Shown here piece after piece: positions 1 to 30,297 of a stretch of 33,350 nt of DNA (its first letter is position 1; each line of letters opens with the position of its first letter). A program made the position numbers and the translations under genes. The notes under the pieces are model-generated. The model had not been told where the DNA came from and did no database searches. It was given only the letters and a program-made list of their open reading frames with translations. Location of the stretch: NCBI RefSeq assembly GCF_900101965.1, contig NZ_FNAP01000020.1, forward strand, positions 1 through 33,350. Direction: 5' to 3'. The DNA comes from Rhodospira trueperi (lineage in GTDB: Bacteria; Pseudomonadota; Alphaproteobacteria; Rhodospirillales; Rhodospirillaceae).

Positions 1-450
1 TGCCTCAGCTCCCGTCACCAAGATCCATCCTGGCCTGTGTCGCCGGGCTCATCTCACCCAAAGATCCAATCTGCATAGCTAACGCTAATTGAGCCAAAAT
101 ATATGGGGCAATCCAGAGCGAATGATGGTGTCCTACGCCCTGGATTGCTTCACCCTCGTCTTGCGACGAGGGTTCGCAATGACAAGTCAAGATGCCGCGC
201 GAGCGAAGAGCCGCCGCTTCGGCGGAAAGAAGTGTGAATATCATAACCCCGAAGGGGCAGGAGAACAGGCCGGCACCGGCCGCAACCGGTTTTCTCCCTC
301 CATCCTGAGAAGTCTGCCGAGGGCGTTGGCCATTTTCTCCGATCCGTACTACCATAGTCGCAATGATCAGACTGTCGCCCTGGTCCGCTCCGAAACGCGG
401 GCTCGCGGCTCCACGGCCATGCCGGTCAGGCGTTCAGGGGAGGCGTGAGG
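1..450. other. Non-coding stretch upstream of the CBS gene
   Basis: Apart from the repeat at 103-240 and a short CCCCGAAGGGG hairpin near 246-256, I see no feature here. Short open frames on both strands are low-complexity read-through of the repeat and lack coding bias and ribosome-binding sites. No convincing promoter for the CBS gene was recognised. Confidence 0.6.
103..240. repeat. Dispersed palindromic repeat, copy 1
   Basis: This 138-bp block matches 30152-30289 without gaps, at about nine in ten positions by hand count. Its core is a palindrome in which GCAATCCAG faces CTGGATTGC, followed by a small hairpin (CCCTCGTC/GACGAGGG) and GTTCGCAATGAC. A second hairpin, CCGCCGCTTCGGCGG, lies near 211-225. 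The left arm with GTCATTGC seen in the other two copies is missing, so this copy looks truncated. The minus strand is open through it and encodes HCEPSSQDEGEAIQ. A third copy lies inside ccoI. Confidence 0.85.
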
Positions 451-940: not shown

Positions 941-3211
941 TTACCCCGTTCCGTACAGGTCAATATCCTCCGGAATGTCGGCGTCCGACATGGCCTGGAA
1001 GTCAACGAGTTCGGTGCTTTCCAGGGTCTCCCCGTCCTCGAATTCAAAGGCCTCGACATCGGTCACGACATCGGTTCCGTCGGCCCCGTCGACAAGCCAG
1101 CCGTTTCCATCCTCCGTCTGCGTGAAGGTGTAGTCCGCCGCGCTGCCGGAGAAGAAGGCGATGTCATAGCCTTCGCCGCCGTTCAGAACGTCGTCTCCGG
1201 CGCCGCCGGTCAGGATGTCATTGCCATCGCCGCCGGTCAGGGTATCGTCGCCGGCGCCGCCCTTGAGGTCGGCCGAGTGGGTGCGACCATCGACGGTCAC
1301 AACGTCATCGCCCGCGCCGGCGTCCACGTCGACCCGGGTATGGCCCTTGTCGCCGGTCACGGTCACGATGTCGTCGCCGTCGCCGGTCTCGACGGTGAAG
1401 GTGTTGTCCCAGCCCGGCCCGTTGGTGTCGGCGTCGATGTTTACGACATCGTCTCCGTCACCGGTCTCGACGGCGCCGCGCTTGGCGCCGGTGATGGTCA
1501 CGTCGCTGTCGCCACCGTCACCCAAGCGGACCTCCGCATGGACGAAGTTGTCGACGCTGACATCGGCGCCGCCGTCACCCTCGGCCAGCACGCTCTTGGC
1601 CTTGTTCCACGTGTCGACACCGATGGAAGTTTCCCCGTCGCCGCTGCCGTCCGTATCCGCGGTGATCTCGGCGCCCCATTGGGAATAGGTGCCGCTCTCG
1701 TCGATCTCCAGGGTCTCGTTGCCGTCGAAGGTCGGGGTGTCGGTGTTGCTGTTATCGACGGTGAAGGTGACGTCGTGTGCCTCTTCGGCGAACGTGAAAT
1801 CGACCGACTTGATCAGGTAGTCCGACGCATCGTTGCCCTTGACGCCGCCGTCGGCATAGGTGCCGGCCTTGAAGACCAACTGGTCGAACGCACCGGCGCC
1901 GTCCGTCGAAATCGTGACGTCACCCTGGTGGCCGGAGTCCGCCTTGAAGGAGCCCTCGGCCACTTTCTCGCCATCGCGGTAGGCTTCCCAAAAGCCCTGC
2001 TCGCCGCCCGCCTCGTTGGCGTAGGCACGCTGGAACTGGGCCGTCGCCTCGCTGACCGGATGATCGAAGTCGATGATCAGGGCCTCGCTCTGGCCCGTAT
2101 CGACGTCATAGCCAAGCTGGGCCGCCGGCCCGGACGCGTTCGACCCATCGACGCCGAGCGCGTCGCCGGACCGGGATACGTTGTCCAGGGAGGCCTCGGT
2201 CAGGGTGCCATCGCTGTTCACGTTGCGGCCGGTGACCCGGAAGCCCTGATCGGTGGCATCGTAGTTGGACACGTCAATTCGGCCGGTCTGGCCCTGGCCT
2301 TCGTCGTCAGCGCCACCGCCGGGTACCTGCTCGTCGCCCGTTTCGTCGTCAGCGCCACCGCCGGCCCCCTGCTCGCCGCCCGTTTCGTCGTCAGCGCCAC
2401 CGCCGGCCCCCTGCTCGCCGCCCGTTTCGTCGTCAGCGCCACCGCCGGCCGCCTGCTCGCCGCCCGTTTCGTCGTCAGCGCCACCGCCGGGCGCCTGCTC
2501 GCCGCCTGTTTCGTCGGTAGCGCCATCGCCGCCGCCGGCTGCCTGCTCGGTGCCGGATACGCCGCCGGATGTCCCGCCCGTGCCGGTGCTGTCGGTCCCG
2601 GTCGCGGCCGTGTCGGCGCCGGCGTTGTTTTCGACGCCAGTCCGCTCCGACTCCTGCACGGGTTCCGACGCCGGCTTGGCAAAGCCCGATCGGCCGGCCC
2701 CTGCCGTGCCCTGATCTTCGGACGCCACACCGCGCATCTGCGGAGCCACCGGAACAAAACCGCCGGCCGAGCCTCCGCCGTCAAACGCGTTCGTGGTCAA
2801 CCCAGGCGCCTCCGCGCCGGTATATCCGCCGCCGCTCGCCGCCGGGTCGGTCTCAGGCGCCACCCCAACACCCTGGCCCGGCAAGCGGCCTTCCGGACCG
2901 TCCACGTCCCCAAACGGGGTCGCCGGGGGCATGGTCTCCGGCCCGCGCATGCCCATTCCGCCTGACTGAGGCTCGACTTGGCCACCGGACACCCCGTCCT
3001 CACCCTGGGATGCCCGACCGGACCCGTCCGCCCGCTCCACCCCCTGGTGGATGTTTTCGTGCGACCGGGCGTCGTCGCCATCGACCGAGTTGCCGATGGC
3101 CTGCTGAAGCTCTGCGTCAGGGTCTGGACGCGCGGTCTTGTCCGCAAGCGACGTCGTGTCATCCAGAATCTGGCGATCAGAGAAGCGCGGGGTTTGGGTG
3201 TCGGTGGCCAT
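941..3211 (-). CDS. Acidic RTX-type protein, probable type I secretion substrate
   Basis: This 756-residue, very acidic protein has no N-terminal signal peptide. The first 215 residues are disordered. Residues about 220-304 are six near-identical 14-residue units (GGGADDETGGEQ plus two). A beta-rich domain of unknown family follows (about 308-460), then a DGDD-rich stretch (about 560-650). Glycine/aspartate nonapeptides of the calcium-binding RTX type (GGAGDDTLTGGDGNDILTGG) lie near 650-680, with a C-terminal tail that probably holds the uncleaved secretion signal. RTX proteins leave the cell through type I secretion, and the exporter genes lie just upstream on the same strand, so this is the likely cargo. 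A GACGAGG sequence precedes the ATG. Whether it is an adhesin, S-layer-like protein or enzyme cannot be told; no catalytic motif was recognised. A 300-bp AT-rich region separates it from the exporter genes and may carry its own promoter. Confidence 0.85.
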   Translation of the reverse strand: MATDTQTPRFSDRQILDDTTSLADKTARPDPDAELQQAIGNSVDGDDARSHENIHQGVERADGSGRASQGEDGVSGGQVEPQSGGMGMRGPETMPPATPFGDVDGPEGRLPGQGVGVAPETDPAASGGGYTGAEAPGLTTNAFDGGGSAGGFVPVAPQMRGVASEDQGTAGAGRSGFAKPASEPVQESERTGVENNAGADTAATGTDSTGTGGTSGGVSGTEQAAGGGDGATDETGGEQAPGGGADDETGGEQAAGGGADDETGGEQGAGGGADDETGGEQGAGGGADDETGDEQVPGGGADDEGQGQTGRIDVSNYDATDQGFRVTGRNVNSDGTLTEASLDNVSRSGDALGVDGSNASGPAAQLGYDVDTGQSEALIIDFDHPVSEATAQFQRAYANEAGGEQGFWEAYRDGEKVAEGSFKADSGHQGDVTISTDGAGAFDQLVFKAGTYADGGVKGNDASDYLIKSVDFTFAEEAHDVTFTVDNSNTDTPTFDGNETLEIDESGTYSQWGAEITADTDGSGDGETSIGVDTWNKAKSVLAEGDGGADVSVDNFVHAEVRLGDGGDSDVTITGAKRGAVETGDGDDVVNIDADTNGPGWDNTFTVETGDGDDIVTVTGDKGHTRVDVDAGAGDDVVTVDGRTHSADLKGGAGDDTLTGGDGNDILTGGAGDDVLNGGEGYDIAFFSGSAADYTFTQTEDGNGWLVDGADGTDVVTDVEAFEFEDGETLESTELVDFQAMSDADIPEDIDLYGTG
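2301..2552. repeat. 42-bp tandem repeat, six units, inside the RTX gene
   Basis: Units start at 2301, 2343, 2385, 2427, 2469 and 2511, exactly 42 bp apart. The middle units are nearly identical and the outer ones diverge. Each unit encodes 14 residues, so changes in copy number keep the reading frame and would lengthen or shorten an acidic, flexible linker in the secreted protein. Confidence 0.9.
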
Positions 3212-17440: not shown

Positions 17441-18226
17441 TTACACCTCCGCCGATCCGTCAGCAATGGCGCGCAGGGCGTCGGGCTGGCGGATGCTGAC
17501 GGAGCTGGGATTCGGCAGGTCGATCAGCCCCTGGCGCTTGAACCAGGTCATGGCGCGGCTGACGGTCTCGACGGTCAGGCCGATGTGATCGGCGATGTCC
17601 GTCCGTCCCATCGGCAGTGCCAGCGGCGACCAAGGATCGCCGCGCCGCCGCGCCCGCTCGGCCAGTCCGAGCAGGAAGGTCGCCACCCGCTCGCGCGCGG
17701 TCTTGCGCCCCAGCAGCAGCACATGGTCATGGAAGTACGCCAACTTGGCGGTCATGCGGCCCATGATGCGGTGCTGCACCTCCGGCGCGGTTTCCGCCAG
17801 TTCGTTCAACCGCCGCATGGGTAGGCGGCACACACCCACCGGCGTGATAGCCTCGGCCGAGTAGGCGTAGGTGCCGTCGAGGCAGAACCCGAACATGTCG
17901 CCGCGAAAGAAAAAGCCGGTGATCTGTCGGCGTCCGTCGGGCATCAGCTTGTAAACCTTCAGAGCACCGGACACGACACTGTAGACGGCGGCGCCGGGAT
18001 CGCCCTCGCGGAACAGCGTGTCATGCGGCTCGAAACGCTGGGTGCACTGAACCCGGGACAGCCGCGAGACGATGCGGGCCGCGAAGCCGTCGCAGAAGGC
18101 CAGGGCGCCCAGGTCGCAGTGACCGCAGGGGCCGCGCGCGACCTCGGCCGGGCGGGGGCACGCGACGGCGGAGGCGCCATCGGCGGGCAGGGTTTCGCGC
18201 AGGGGTACGACGGAGGAACGGGGCAT
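17441..18226 (-). CDS. fnr: FNR-type oxygen-responsive regulator of the Crp/Fnr family
   Basis: This 261-residue regulator has an N-terminal Cys cluster, Cys34-X2-Cys37-X7-Cys45, and a further Cys133 in VGVCRLP. These match the iron-sulfur ligands of FnrN/FnrL proteins of alphaproteobacteria; Cys23, Cys61 and Cys115 are extra. A cyclic-nucleotide-like beta-barrel follows, then a helix-turn-helix whose recognition helix ends ETVSRAM, which in FNR contacts TTGAT-N4-ATCAA. It should dimerise and activate microaerobic genes when its 4Fe-4S cluster is intact. GGGAG precedes the ATG by 9 nt. A perfect FNR box lies about 56 bp upstream, indicating autoregulation. The adjacent ccoHIS genes are classic targets of this regulator family. 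Confidence 0.93.
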   Translation of the reverse strand: MPRSSVVPLRETLPADGASAVACPRPAEVARGPCGHCDLGALAFCDGFAARIVSRLSRVQCTQRFEPHDTLFREGDPGAAVYSVVSGALKVYKLMPDGRRQITGFFFRGDMFGFCLDGTYAYSAEAITPVGVCRLPMRRLNELAETAPEVQHRIMGRMTAKLAYFHDHVLLLGRKTARERVATFLLGLAERARRRGDPWSPLALPMGRTDIADHIGLTVETVSRAMTWFKRQGLIDLPNPSSVSIRQPDALRAIADGSAEV

Positions 18227-18359: not shown

Positions 18360-18530
18360 CTACGGTTTGGCGGGCGGGCCGTCATTCCCGTCCTCGTCGT
18401 CGAACAGAATCCGGTGCGCCGCGCCGTCCAGGTCGTCGAACTGGCCACTGCGCAGCGCCCACAGGAACGCCGCCAGACCCGCCAGCCCGAGCAGCAGCGC
18501 CATGGGAATCAGGAACAGCAGGGCGTTCAT
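18360..18530 (-). CDS. ccoS: CcoS, cbb3 oxidase maturation protein
   Basis: This 56-residue protein has one N-terminal membrane helix (about 3-26) followed by RSGQFDDLDGAAHRILFDDE, the hallmark of CcoS/FixS. CcoS is needed for cofactor insertion into the cbb3-type cytochrome oxidase. Its ATG overlaps the ccoI stop codon (ATGA), so it is coupled to ccoI and ends the ccoHIS unit. The short acidic tail ends in GPPAKP. Confidence 0.93.
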   Translation of the reverse strand: MNALLFLIPMALLLGLAGLAAFLWALRSGQFDDLDGAAHRILFDDEDGNDGPPAKP

Positions 18531-21283
18531 GGGCGGGACTTCCGGGTCCGGGTCAGACGCATTGCATTGGTGGTGACCACCAGGGACGAGGTACTCATGG
18601 CCACGGCGGCGATCAAGGGGGTCACCAGCCCGGCCAGGGCCAGGGGCACCGTCACGGCGTTGTACAGCAGCGCCAGCGCCAGATTCTGCCGAACCAGCCG
18701 GTCGGCGCGGTGCGCGGTCTCCAGAGCCTGAAGCACGGGCGCCAGCCGGTCGCCCTGGAACACCAGGTCGGCGGCGGTCTGGCTGATGTCGATGGCGCTG
18801 GCCGGAGAGGCCGAGACATGCGCGGCGGCCAGCGCCGGCGCGTCGTTCAGTCCGTCGCCCACCATCAGCACCCGCCGACCCTGGTCGCGCAGCGCCGCCA
18901 GCCGGGCCAGCTTGTCGCCGGGGGCGCAGCCGCCCCGCCATGTCTCGATTCCGGCGTCCGCCGCCACCCGGGCGACCGTCTCCGGGCGGTCGCCGGACAG
19001 CAATTCCACCGCCAGCCCCCGGGCCTTGAGCGCATCCACCACCTCGGCGGCGTCGGGACGCAGAGGATCGGCGAACCTGAAGCGCACCGGCGCCCGATCC
19101 CCCACCCGCAGCCACAGTTCGGGACCAAGAAACCCCGCCCCAACCCTCCCCATTTCCTGGGGAGGGAGTTCGGCCGGTGTCCGCCGCTCGGACTCCTCGT
19201 CCGTGGAATCTATTGGATTCGCACAACTCTTGTTTTGGTCGTCATTGCCAGGAGCGAAGCGACGAAGCAATCCAGGGCGGATATCGCGCTTCTCGCCCTG
19301 GATTGCTTCGCCCGCGTCAATGGACGCGGGCTCGCAATGACGGATCATACCACTGCCGGAACTGCGGTCTCTGGCTCGGTCAGCTAAGGAGTGTGAACTC
19401 GATAGCCCCATGGACCGGGGGCGGTTGGGAGGAGTTTCAAGCGCTGGGCGCCGTCCACTGGATGTGGTCCCCAGGGTGCCCCCGACGCCCGGCTTCGCGA
19501 CTCCACAGAACGCCGCCGAACCCAGCCGCGTCGGGCCTTCCGGGTCGTCCCAGGATAGCCCCTCTCCCGGGTGTTCGCGGACACCGGATACCGCCGGAGC
19601 GGCGGGACACGCGCCGGCCAGGGCGCGGGCCAGCGGATGGCGGCTGCTCGCCGCGCCTCCGGCGGCGCGGCGCAGGTCGTCGTCCGTCCACTCCGCCGCG
19701 TCGCTCTCCAGGGTCGGGCGCCCCAGCGTCAGGGTGCCGGTCTTGTCGAACACCACGGTGTCGGCCTCGGTCAGGCGTTCCAGCGCCGTGGCCGCCTTCA
19801 GGAACGTGCCGGCCTTCAGCAGGCGGCCGCTGGCGATCACCTGCACCACCGGGACGGCCAGCGCCAGCGCGCACGGGCAGGTGATGATGAGCACCGCCGC
19901 CGCGATCAGCAGCGCCTCCTGCCACGCCAGCCCCCCGACCAGCCACCAGCCCAGGAACGCCGACAGGGCCAGCGCATGCACCACGGGCGCATACAGCCGC
20001 GCCACCCGGTCGGCCAGCGCCACCATGCGGGCGCGGCCCTGCTCGGCCACCTCCATCATGCGCACGATCTCGGCCAGCAGGGTGCGCTCGCCCACCGCGT
20101 CCACCCGCACATGCAGCGGCGCCGACAGGTTCAGCGTACCGGCGAAGACGCGGTCCCCCGGGCCGGCGCGGGCCGGCATGGTCTCGCCGGTGATGAGGCT
20201 GACATCCAGATCGCTCAGCCCCTCGGACACGGCGCCGTCCACGCCGACGCGCTCGCCGACCGCGACCAGCACCGTCCCGCCCACCGGCACCTCGGCCGGC
20301 CGCACCGAGCGGATGCGGCCGTCCGGCTCGATCAGGGTGACCGGCGCCCCACCCAGAGCCAGCAGCCGCCCGGCCGCCGAGCGCGCCCGGCCACGCGCCC
20401 GGCTGTCCAGGAAACGGCCGATCAGCAGGAAGAACAGCAGCATCACCGCCGCGTCGAAATAGGCGTGCGGGCCGCCGCGGGCGGTCTCCCACAGGCTCAT
20501 GCCGGCGGCGAGCAGGACCGCCAGAGTGATGGGCACGTCCATGTTGGCGCGCCCGGCGCGTAGCGCGGTCACGGCCGAGCGGGCGAAGGGCCGGATGCCG
20601 TAGCCGATGGCCGGAATGGCGATCAGCGCCGACAGCCAGTGCATCAGGTCGCGGGTGGCGGCGTCCATGTCGGCGCCGAACCACACCGAGACCGAGAACA
20701 GCATAATGTTACCGGTGGCGAATCCGGTCACCGCCATGGCCCGCAAGAGCGACCTCTCGGTGCGGTCGGTGTCGCGGTCCACGGTGGCCGGGTCATAGGG
20801 AACGAGCCGGTAGCCCACGGTCAGCACCGGGTCCAGCACCCGCCGCGCCCCCAGGTCTGGCGCCTCGCCCTCGCCCGGCTGGGGCGTCCAGCGCAGCGAC
20901 AACCGGCGCGTCGTCATGTTGACGCGGGCGTGGGTCACGCCGGGCTGCATGGTCAACAGGCGCTCGATCAGCCAGACGCAAGCGGCGCAGTGCAACCCCT
21001 CCACCAGAAGCGACAGACTGACCTCACCTTGGTCCGTGGGCGTGACATGCACGGCGTAATCGGGAATGGCGTCGTCGGCGTCCGGCTTCAGCGCGCGGAC
21101 GGCCGGATCCAGGCAGCGTTGGTCGTAATAGCGATCCAGACCCAGGCCGTTGACGAGCCCGAATGCAGCCTGGCAGCCGGCACAGCAGAAGCCGGGATGG
21201 CCGGCGGCGGCGGCTGTATCGGGGTCGAAGGGATCGCCGCAGTGCCGACACGCACCGTCCGTGTCCGGGTCGGGCGCAGCCAA
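18527..21283 (-). CDS. ccoI: CcoI (FixI) copper-transporting P-type ATPase with a repeat-derived insertion
   Basis: This P1B-type ATPase supplies copper for cbb3 oxidase assembly. It has Cys12/15 and Cys33/34/37 near the N-terminus, an HMA-like CAAC (99-102), TGE, the ion site Cys469-Pro-Cys471, the phosphorylated Asp513 in DKTGT, HPLA, and GDGLNDAP (809-816). The TTG at 21283 is chosen because GGTGGAG, overlapping the ccoH stop, precedes it; that gives 918 residues. Between Val595 (FCGV) and Pro721 (PELWL) lie about 120 residues with no counterpart in the family. They are translated from a palindromic repeat (19210-19405) plus flanking DNA including a G/C hairpin. The frame stays open and all downstream motifs are intact, so the protein may be active. 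Start choice is moderately sure; identity is very sure. Confidence 0.93.
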   Translation of the reverse strand: MAAPDPDTDGACRHCGDPFDPDTAAAAGHPGFCCAGCQAAFGLVNGLGLDRYYDQRCLDPAVRALKPDADDAIPDYAVHVTPTDQGEVSLSLLVEGLHCAACVWLIERLLTMQPGVTHARVNMTTRRLSLRWTPQPGEGEAPDLGARRVLDPVLTVGYRLVPYDPATVDRDTDRTERSLLRAMAVTGFATGNIMLFSVSVWFGADMDAATRDLMHWLSALIAIPAIGYGIRPFARSAVTALRAGRANMDVPITLAVLLAAGMSLWETARGGPHAYFDAAVMLLFFLLIGRFLDSRARGRARSAAGRLLALGGAPVTLIEPDGRIRSVRPAEVPVGGTVLVAVGERVGVDGAVSEGLSDLDVSLITGETMPARAGPGDRVFAGTLNLSAPLHVRVDAVGERTLLAEIVRMMEVAEQGRARMVALADRVARLYAPVVHALALSAFLGWWLVGGLAWQEALLIAAAVLIITCPCALALAVPVVQVIASGRLLKAGTFLKAATALERLTEADTVVFDKTGTLTLGRPTLESDAAEWTDDDLRRAAGGAASSRHPLARALAGACPAAPAVSGVREHPGEGLSWDDPEGPTRLGSAAFCGVAKPGVGGTLGTTSSGRRPALETPPNRPRSMGLSSSHSLADRARDRSSGSGMIRHCEPASIDAGEAIQGEKRDIRPGLLRRFAPGNDDQNKSCANPIDSTDEESERRTPAELPPQEMGRVGAGFLGPELWLRVGDRAPVRFRFADPLRPDAAEVVDALKARGLAVELLSGDRPETVARVAADAGIETWRGGCAPGDKLARLAALRDQGRRVLMVGDGLNDAPALAAAHVSASPASAIDISQTAADLVFQGDRLAPVLQALETAHRADRLVRQNLALALLYNAVTVPLALAGLVTPLIAAVAMSTSSLVVTTNAMRLTRTRKSRP
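19144..19166. repeat. G/C-run hairpin inside ccoI
   Basis: CCCTCCCC (19144-19151) and GGGGAGGG (19159-19166) form a perfect 8-bp stem. On the minus strand it is followed by TTGGGGCGGGG, as in the elements at 10705-10745 and 880-925. It lies within the extra segment of ccoI, next to the larger palindromic repeat. Confidence 0.6.
19210..19405. repeat. Dispersed palindromic repeat, copy 2, inside ccoI
   Basis: The core runs from GTCGTCATTGCC (19239) to CTCGCAATGAC (19331-19341) and contains GCAATCCAGGGCG facing CGCCCTGGATTGC. The left flank, with GGATT..CACAACTCT, matches copy 3 at 30090-30110. To the right, GTGTGAACTCGATAG (19391-19405) sits 58 bp after CGCAATGAC, close to the 57 bp of the other copies, although the sequence between differs. 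On the minus strand it encodes HCEPASIDAGEAIQ within CcoI, the same frame as HCEPSSQDEGEAIQ in the other copies. Confidence 0.85.
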
Positions 21284-21288
21284 GACGG

Positions 21289-21816
21289 CTACTCCACCAG
21301 CAGCCGGCGGCGCAGCCGAAAGACGTCCTCGCCCCGGCGGGCGCTGACCACCACATCCCACTGTCCGGGCTTGGCGAACGTCAGGCGGGTTTCATAGAGG
21401 CCCGGCCCAACCGCCCGCAGGGGCAGCGTCTGGTCCAGGCCCTGTTCGGTCGGACGGCGGACCGTGGCGGTTAGACTGAGACCGTCGAGCGGGCCCCCCT
21501 CGGCTCCCCGGCCATCGGCGCGCAGGGTGGCGACTCGGGAAAGGCCGTCGGGCTCCAGAGCTTCGACGGCGGCGAGATCCAGATCCCAGGTCCATCCCAG
21601 GGCGGCCTGAGCCTCTTCCTCGGCAACCCGATCGTTGTAGGCCAGTCCCTCGACATAGGCCTGTTTGGTGGACAGTCCGGAGAAACTGGATAGCGCGAAA
21701 TACAGCATGGCGCCGTTCGCGGCCAGCACGACCGCGAACCCGGCCACAAACGTATAGGGAATCCACCAGCCGCGCTGGCGGTGCGCGTTTTCCGCCTGGG
21801 GCGGTGTCCTGCTCAT
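21289..21816 (-). CDS. ccoH: CcoH (FixH) cbb3 oxidase assembly protein
   Basis: The 175-residue protein has a short cytoplasmic N-terminus ending in RGWWIPYTF, one membrane helix (about 19-42) and a periplasmic domain beginning LSTKQAYVEGLAYND, characteristic of FixH. A C-terminal beta-sandwich follows (PGLYETRLTFAKPGQWDVVV). FixH works with FixI in cbb3 oxidase maturation. It is first of the ccoHIS unit; its stop codon overlaps the ribosome-binding site of ccoI. ccoG, usually next to it, is absent; the upstream neighbour is rpsT, 81 bp away on the same strand. No FNR box is visible in that gap. Confidence 0.9.
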   Translation of the reverse strand: MSRTPPQAENAHRQRGWWIPYTFVAGFAVVLAANGAMLYFALSSFSGLSTKQAYVEGLAYNDRVAEEEAQAALGWTWDLDLAAVEALEPDGLSRVATLRADGRGAEGGPLDGLSLTATVRRPTEQGLDQTLPLRAVGPGLYETRLTFAKPGQWDVVVSARRGEDVFRLRRRLLVE

Positions 21817-24882: not shown

Positions 24883-24959
24883 TGGTCGGGGCGAGAGGAT
24901 TCGAACCTCCGGCTTCTAGCTCCCAAAGCTAGCGCTCTACCAGGCTGAGCTACGCCCCG
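24883..24959 (-). tRNA. tRNA-Pro (anticodon UGG)
   Basis: The minus strand folds into a full cloverleaf: acceptor stem CGGGGCG/CGCCCCG, D-arm GCTC..GAGC, anticodon stem CTAGC/GCTAG with loop TTTGGGA (anticodon TGG), and T-arm GGAGG-TTCGAAT-CCTCT. The discriminator A is followed by an encoded CCA (24885-24883). It reads the proline codon CCA and, by wobble, other CCN codons. Confidence 0.97.
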
Positions 24960-30088: not shown

Positions 30089-30297
30089 CTATCGGATTGA
30101 CACAACTCTACTTGCGGTCGTCATTGCGAGGAGCACAGCCCATATTAAAACATGGGGCAATCCAGGGTGAGCCTGGGTGTTCTACGCTCTGGATTGCTTC
30201 GCCCTCGTCTTGCGACGAGGGTTCGCAATGACGAGTCAAGATGTCGCGCGAGCGAAGAGCCGCCGCTTCGGCGGAAAGACGTGTGAATACGATAGGC
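30089..30297. repeat. Dispersed palindromic repeat, copy 3
   Basis: This is the most complete copy: left flank GGATTGACACAACTCT, left end GTCGTCATTGCGAGGAGC, the GCAATCCAG/CTGGATTGC pair, right end GTTCGCAATGAC, the CCGCCGCTTCGGCGG hairpin and GTGTGAATACGATAG. Positions 30152-30289 align gap-free with 103-240. The minus strand encodes HCEPSSQDEGEAIQ in an open frame. It begins about 60 bp after the acyl-CoA dehydrogenase stop. Confidence 0.85.

Follow-up and report, generated by a model that had tools for sequence, protein, structure and literature searches.

How did a palindromic repeat that is dispersed over a bacterial genome come to lie in frame inside a conserved copper pump, and is the repeat built for such a place? 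The question is raised by the ccoI (fixI) gene of Rhodospira trueperi, which lies at positions 18527 to 21361 on the minus strand of the window analysed here, a stretch of 33,350 nucleotides (nt) that makes up the whole of contig C16; the genome measures 4.21 Mb and is assembled in 50 contigs. The gene encodes a Cu+ P1B-type ATPase of 944 amino acid residues (aa) for the assembly of the cbb3 oxidase. It carries an extra segment at 19124 to 19498 (minus strand), corresponding to CcoI residues 622 to 746, with a net gain of 113 aa over the gene of the nearest relative, the sister species designated G002. I consider it quite probable that a mosaic of mobile repeats entered a loop of ccoI and survived there as an in-frame, stop-free insert tolerated by the loop, and that it is translated through while the pump is otherwise intact.

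As the initial annotation of this DNA had stated, the frame stays open and the CPC (residue 495), DKTGT (539), and GDGLND (835) motifs are unbroken; the open frame extends over all 944 aa. The open reading frame (ORF) has the E1-E2 ATPase, hydrolase, HMA, and ATPase-cat_bd domains, and the FixH gene (21289 to 21816) adjoins ccoI on the upstream side; the P1B ATPase domains, the motifs, and the fix/cco neighbourhood together identify the product as CcoI/FixI. A gene for a Crp/FNR-type regulator with cNMP-binding and Crp HTH domains is also found near the cco genes (17441 to 18226, minus strand). Inside CcoI, 125 residues separate FCGV (Val621) from PELWL (Pro747), as compared with about 12 in the nearest relative. 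The first estimate had been about 120 extra residues, with the same two residues numbered Val595 and Pro721. At the DNA level, the stretch from RLGSxxF to LWLR measures 423 bp in the window and 75, 84, 87, and 90 bp in four genes of the same genus, making it 333 to 348 bp (111 to 116 aa) longer than in these relatives; relative to G002 the net gain is 339 bp, or 113 codons.

Is the segment an insertion or a loss in the others? CcoI was searched for in 40 genomes including the own genome, and 38 of them have a match to CcoI or to another P-type ATPase. Among the 29 relative loci returned, three (L058 to L060, 35 to 37% identical) were omitted from the CcoI alignment, and 26 ORFs were aligned. 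The closest loci are those of an uncultured Rhodospira sp. (82%) and Roseospira visakhapatnamensis (77%). The insert is absent from all 24 relative ORFs that cover the site, the other two of the 26 stopping before it, and the site is likewise empty at the DNA level in all four same-genus genes, so the proposed check on close relatives turned out in favour of an insertion. In G005, one of the five same-genus genomes (G001 to G005), which is 88% complete, no close CcoI was found. No examined relative carries the same residues encoded by unrelated DNA. In a distant relative (L051), the loop at the site is somewhat longer and of unrelated sequence, and thus its length varies in any case. The idea that a protein family underlies the extra peptide was rejected, since the peptide has no Pfam or NCBIfam match. 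NCBIfam includes models of Rickettsia palindromic elements (RPEs); no RPE model is present among 25 of the 29 NCBIfam families for CcoI at E ≤ 1, and none was found for the 125-residue segment.

As judged from its sequence, the insert is a nested mosaic, in which a 103-bp palindrome lies within a 196-bp element resembling a miniature inverted-repeat transposable element (MITE), which in turn lies within GC-rich palindromic flanks. The MITE-like element, designated E1-long, occupies 19210 to 19405 (minus strand) and has the inverted ends CTATCGAG.../...CCAATAG. The palindrome, designated the E1 core, occupies 19240 to 19342 (minus strand) with the arrangement CGTCATTGC..GCAATCCA....TGGATTGC..GCAATGACG, resembles a dimer of CGTC-tagged repetitive extragenic palindromic (REP) sequences, and is translated in the reading frame of CcoI as RHCEPASIDAGEAIQ...FAPGND. 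When folded as a single strand, this core gives z = -8.8 against dinucleotide shuffles; six E1 cores so folded give z values from -6.0 to -9.9, and the stretch from 19124 to 19440 gives z = -7.4.

The right flank of E1-long (19124 to 19209, minus strand, 86 bp) contains a dispersed GC-rich hairpin module at about 19131 to 19173, whose hairpin is CTCCCTCCCC/GGGGAGGG. The module has at least 22 further matches in the own genome at E ≤ 0.01 (40 of 53 candidates scored) and is also dispersed in the same-genus genomes. Several of its copies belong to a longer repeat with inverted ends like CAGCAGTTCTCATTTTG. The left flank (19406 to 19438, minus strand) is C-rich and has only short matches, the best being 88.9% over 27 nt, and none in the own genome at E ≤ 0.01; it is probably one half of an oppositely oriented GC-rich module. 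The remainder of the extra segment (19439 to 19498, minus strand, about 60 bp) has no match elsewhere in the own genome and is partly the normal variable loop of the family. It was therefore correct that a dispersed palindromic repeat lies in the insert; the insert, however, exceeds the 196-bp element, the right flank being another dispersed module and the left one probably half of one. The entire 125-residue segment was likewise rejected as a single element, because its parts match different dispersed modules. Among the loci retrieved, L062 to L080 represent a second dispersed family of up to about 250 to 300 bp, with inverted ends like CAGCAGTTCTCATTTTG and two opposed GC-rich hairpins. It is sometimes invaded by E1-long (L066 and L073).

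How widespread is E1? In the window and the fetched stretches of the own genome, the E1 core has 57 non-overlapping copies at E ≤ 0.01, the weakest being a 50-nt piece with E = 0.0018, and a reversed control pattern gave no hits in the own genome. The copies were collected from about 56 merged places of a 15-base pattern (one mismatch allowed) and from profile hits in the fetched stretches; more diverged copies can escape the 15-base pattern, and 57 is the number of copies found. Six of them are incomplete and were omitted from the frame counts, in which the 51 full cores were used. By loose end patterns, both long-form ends are recognisable in 16 own copies, one end in 12, and neither in 29. 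In G002, 69 E1 copies were examined, from 100 of 146 pattern matches. Besides the CcoI copy, the window contains a partial core at 103 to 183 (minus strand), which has one recognisable end, and an E1-long copy at 30089 to 30295 (minus strand) with its core at 30119 to 30233. Both had been called intergenic, and indeed neither sits in a coding-like open frame. In the latter core the HCEP..GEAIQ frame is open, yet no frame spans its long form.

Among the same-genus matches listed (at most 40 candidates scored per genome), G002 and G005 are rich in E1, G004 has mainly the hairpin module, and G001 and G003 have two matches each. In 299 genomes sampled evenly over the phylum, a strict arm pattern was found in 17, the own genome being one of them; the 16 others belong to its class. 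The reversed control of this pattern gave zero in every one of the 299. Assembly errors often arise at palindromic repeats, and a repeat might have been wrongly joined into ccoI. Such an error is unlikely, however, and I can give this explanation hardly any credence: the CcoI copy is no duplicate of another locus, its best identity to any other match in the own genome being at most 88%, and the frame and the CcoI sequence carry on at both sides of the insert. It is also the most diverged of the 17 long copies of similar length, with 73.8% identity to the consensus as compared with 79.6 to 92.8%. Relative to the consensus of the 16 others, it has one additional base in the left arm and lacks one base in the core, the two changes cancelling each other.

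Is E1-long mobile? The flanking bases on either side of the long copies were compared over nine positions, with an offset of one allowed. At least seven of the nine match in eight of the 16 own copies and in six of the 15 G002 copies (14 of 31 together), and a perfect duplication of nine bases was seen in one own copy and five G002 copies. Shuffled pairings of the flanks reached the same level in 1.83 (own) and 1.27 (G002) copies on average, with a maximum of five in each genome. GC-rich hairpin arms are present on both sides of ten own and eight G002 long copies (18 of 31), on one side of five and three, and on neither side of one and four, respectively. By comparison, only one of 29 short copies in the own genome and none of 38 in G002 have such arms on both sides. 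Terminal inverted repeats, with both ends present in the 16 own and 15 G002 copies, go together with target duplications in the 14 copies just given. From the duplications and the two-sided hairpin arms, I read E1-long as a MITE-like element that duplicates 9 bp of its target and prefers hairpin loops.

Is the element adapted to genes? The initial annotation had proposed that it may be built to tolerate insertion in genes. A copy was counted as genic when an open frame runs over it and the codon scores are positive on both sides; genes disrupted out of frame fall outside this count. The search of the genome for genic copies, also proposed there, yielded the 57 dispersed copies, but only two of these are in coding frames, namely those in CcoI and in a double-domain glycosyltransferase. 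In G002, two of the 69 examined copies are clearly in coding frames. Several further candidates were not counted. An 89-aa open frame in the own genome (L155) was a scan hit with positive flank scores, as were a 77-aa frame (L257) and a 548-aa frame (L277) in G002, the last with codon scores near zero and no family match. Three own copies that lie in open frames, upstream of likely genes or at their start (two in L130 and one in L157), were counted as lying outside. By the same codon score, 0.84 of the window is coding, so that random insertion without selection would place most copies in genes.

Selection on the family to keep a frame open, and thereby to spread through genes, has been suggested for RPEs. 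For E1, it might be argued that 44 of the 51 cores are open in frame -1 and 38 in frame +1, and that there are three genic insertions across the two sister species. Nevertheless, such an adaptation is very improbable here, being largely refuted by the frame counts. Genic copies are rare in both genomes in spite of a window that is about 84% coding. On average, 2.63 of the 6 frames of a core are open, which equals the value for shuffles, and the open cores number 11, 38, 16, 6, 44, and 19 of 51 for frames +0, +1, +2, -0, -1, and -2. CcoI uses the minority frame +0. It had been claimed that this HCEP(S/A)S..GEAIQ frame is also open in the other copies; this holds for the first 48 nt in 47 of the 51 full cores but for the whole core in only 11, a TGA in the terminal CAATGACG of the core closing the frame in 37. 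Core length matters: +0 is open in eight of nine cores of 103 or 115 nt and in two of three of 117 nt, as compared with only one of 31 of 104 nt and none of four of 116 nt. Over the long element, +0 is open in the CcoI copy alone (1 of 16), and in 11 of the 16 every frame is closed. The three genic insertions enter the element in three different frames, as judged from the peptides RHCEP (CcoI), SLRG (glycosyltransferase), and VIAR (CobN). A coding-adapted element was rejected on these counts.

What do the other genic copies tell? The double-domain glycosyltransferase gene (L141:1194-4142, that is, G000:C14:81300-84248, plus strand) has an E1 core in frame in its inter-domain linker. G002 has a copy in frame at the same linker site (L228/L251), and none is present in G001, G003, G004, or G005. 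Most simply, from this distribution, the insertion would predate the split of the two species. Over 29 aligned codons the element is 94.3% identical in DNA, with two synonymous and three replacement codon differences, while the proteins are only 76% identical. Thus, gene conversion or repeated insertion at one site may instead have produced the shared copy. The cobN gene of G002 (L278:4686-7901 on G002:C82, minus strand) encodes a CobN that matches TIGR02257 with 1347.5 bits against a cut-off of 822; an E1 core is present in frame, with about 83 extra residues. No insert is present in the CobN of the own genome, G001, G003, or G005, whereas that of G004 contains a different one, rich in hairpins, at this position. 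A tentative and rather doubtful extension of these cases is that hairpin-targeting repeat mosaics have given rise again and again to long protein loops in this Roseospira/Rhodospira-like genus, in at least three conserved proteins and in three frames, that one of them has stayed in frame since before a species split, and that some of these loops may by now alter the proteins.

Is ccoI still functional? A recent insertion that is open by chance could have inactivated the gene, with cbb3 assembly relying on something else; the insert is large, lies in the catalytic half of the protein, and is absent from the nearest relative. However, the ratio of nonsynonymous to synonymous substitution rates (dN/dS) between the window and G002 is 0.182 before the insert and 0.227 after it, and that of insert-free pairs ranges from 0.149 to 0.253 before the site and from 0.163 to 0.267 after it. 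Where three other species agree, the window has private changes at 17 of 432 sites before and three of 137 after the insert, and G002 has 12 and four at the same sites. Of the columns that do not vary in eight relatives, three of 261 before the insert and one of 85 after it are changed in the window. There is no excess of changes downstream, and the reading frame, closed in each of the 15 other long copies, here runs open through all 196 bp. The own genome has one close ccoI match, the next best being only 37% identical with no second ccoI listed, and one intact ccoN elsewhere, above the family cut-off; the initial annotation had named a second intact ccoI as a finding that would speak against it. 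With constraint similar on both sides of the insert, a dead gene has no support and inactivation is improbable. From these substitution patterns, ccoI looks alive.

Where does the insert lie in the protein? An AlphaFold2 model of CcoI from 25 sequences has a mean predicted local distance difference test (pLDDT) score of 71. Residues 625 to 742 score below 50 and are modelled as coil without secondary structure, while the blocks of residues 601 to 620 and 751 to 770 score 89 to 91 and 88 to 91, respectively. Strands 609 to 614 and 748 to 753 flank the insert, and the match to a solved P-domain starts at residue 759. Thus, by the model, the insert forms a long loop within the N-domain, not at the passage from the N-domain to the P-domain where it had been placed. 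Has the peptide been put to use, for example in the regulation of the ATPase or in the binding of a partner? The CcoI copy has the best codon score of the 51 cores in its frame (-0.02, the mean being -0.42), and its differences from the consensus of the 16 other copies fall at codon positions 1, 2, and 3 in the numbers 13, 16, and 22 when the whole element is counted; for the core together with the right arm the numbers are 5, 6, and 11. The third-position excess is mild and, by my own arithmetic, not significant. Against a use stand the lack of a family match and of a predicted fold, the presence in one species only, and the left arm, which holds most of the divergence without a codon pattern (8, 10, and 11). 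The positions of the differences thus give no clear sign either way of constraint on the peptide, and I regard a use as decidedly improbable.

The preferred reading, then, is a mobile mosaic that survived in a tolerant loop, and I infer its route into ccoI, its translation, its disorder, and its harmlessness as follows. A CGTC-REP-like palindromic dimer would be carried inside the 196-bp MITE-like element, which would insert with a 9-bp target duplication, preferably in the loops of GC-rich hairpins. At ccoI, E1-long appears to sit between GC-rich modules, and the mosaic would have entered the length-variable loop between the two strands of the N-domain. It would owe its survival to a net length divisible by three, to the lack of an in-frame stop codon in this copy, and to a loop that tolerates a long peptide, which is probably disordered. 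Transcription and translation would then run through the entire gene and produce a CcoI with about 113 more residues and an otherwise intact pump.

Several points weigh against this account. The target duplication of the CcoI copy itself is poor (six of nine bases) and its left module matches others weakly, so that the order in which the parts arrived is uncertain; an outer module without E1 over the same junction was not found among the loci examined. E1-long and nine further base pairs make 205 bp, which is not a multiple of three, and thus E1 arriving alone would shift the frame unless compensated. The alignment of the left arm is uncertain, and a G002 copy (L268) shares the extra base of the CcoI copy. 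The antisense -1 frame of the CcoI copy also ranks first in codon score, so that this signal is not specific. After the insert, the window gives a dN/dS of 0.271 with G004 and 0.289 with G001, slightly above the range of the insert-free pairs. Finally, low model confidence is expected within the insert because the 24 other sequences of the model lack it, and it is weak evidence for disorder.

Two further features of the window may be mentioned. A tRNA gene at 24886 to 24959 (minus strand) is the sole Rfam match at the gathering threshold. A 756-aa ORF at 941 to 3211 (minus strand) contains six overlapping 111-nt direct repeats with a spacing of 42 nt (2258 to 2578) and shorter repeats at 1147 to 1530.

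How does E1 compare with known repeats? CGTC-tagged REPs, found mostly in alphaproteobacteria, are treated in passages of Di Nocera, De Gregorio and Rocco (2013; PMC3733652), in which two of them are identified with the rickettsial RPE-6 and RPE-4 and REP dimers inside larger palindromes are reported. According to the same passages, REPs are mostly intergenic, some lie in frame in genes of many kinds in several species, and more than half of the genic inserts are dimers or groups coding for 20 to 30 aa, with clusters coding for 43 to 82 aa; the authors regard insertions in flexible linkers or loops as possibly neutral and speculate that some have altered DNA-repair proteins. E1 shares with these REPs the terminal CGTC tag and the stem start AT (CGTCATTGC at the core ends in most aligned copies), the CCA tail (GCAATCCAG, present in each arm of the CcoI core and in the majority of copies), and paired inverted units that are dispersed and mainly intergenic. 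In geometry the units do not fit neatly: REPs have a stem of 8 to 9 bp and a loop of 4 to 5 bp, and the E1 core folds into a closing stem and two inner hairpins, one with a 4-nt loop. With the tags outside and the tails facing each other, E1 probably has the arrangement called rare in that text. It also differs in that the dimer is embedded in a longer element with its own ends, and the CcoI insert of about 113 aa exceeds the 82 aa that are the largest given in those passages.

With RPEs, which the initial annotation aptly brought in, E1 shares the in-frame insertion in conserved protein genes (CcoI, the glycosyltransferase, and CobN); unlike them, its genic copies are few (2 of 57) and have no common reading frame. 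The two sources, as far as their relevant sections go, give RPE-1, RPE-4, and RPE-6 as palindromes of about 105 to 146 bp in frame in conserved proteins. The review of Delihas (PMC2229807) covers, in the part on fusions, RPE and MITE sequences fused in frame, and cites an RPE-carrying Gmk as translated and active with a changed substrate affinity. The claim that such a case is not described therefore stands only in part. One literature search found no paper that joins CcoI, cbb3, insertion, and palindromic. No paper was found with five peptide strings taken from the repeat, and the eight papers in which its DNA string occurs deal, as judged by title, with other subjects. The kind of event, however, is published, and the CcoI case is a further example of in-frame REP/RPE insertion, not a new phenomenon.

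The interest lies less in CcoI itself than in the comparison of the sister species and in the hairpin-targeting element. Outside Rickettsia, in-frame repeat insertions can here be compared between sister species at empty, filled, and shared sites, which would allow a direct test of neutral survivors against useful insertions. With the bacterial MITEs RUP, Correia/NEMIS, and ERIC, as presented in sections of PMC2229807, E1-long shares the short length, the inverted ends, the target duplication, and the occasional in-frame fusion; it differs from them, as they are described there, in its ends of the CTATCG/CGATAG kind, its 9-bp duplication, and its apparent hairpin-loop target. The analysis also describes E1-long as a putative MITE-like element in which a REP dimer is carried and which seems to target hairpin loops.

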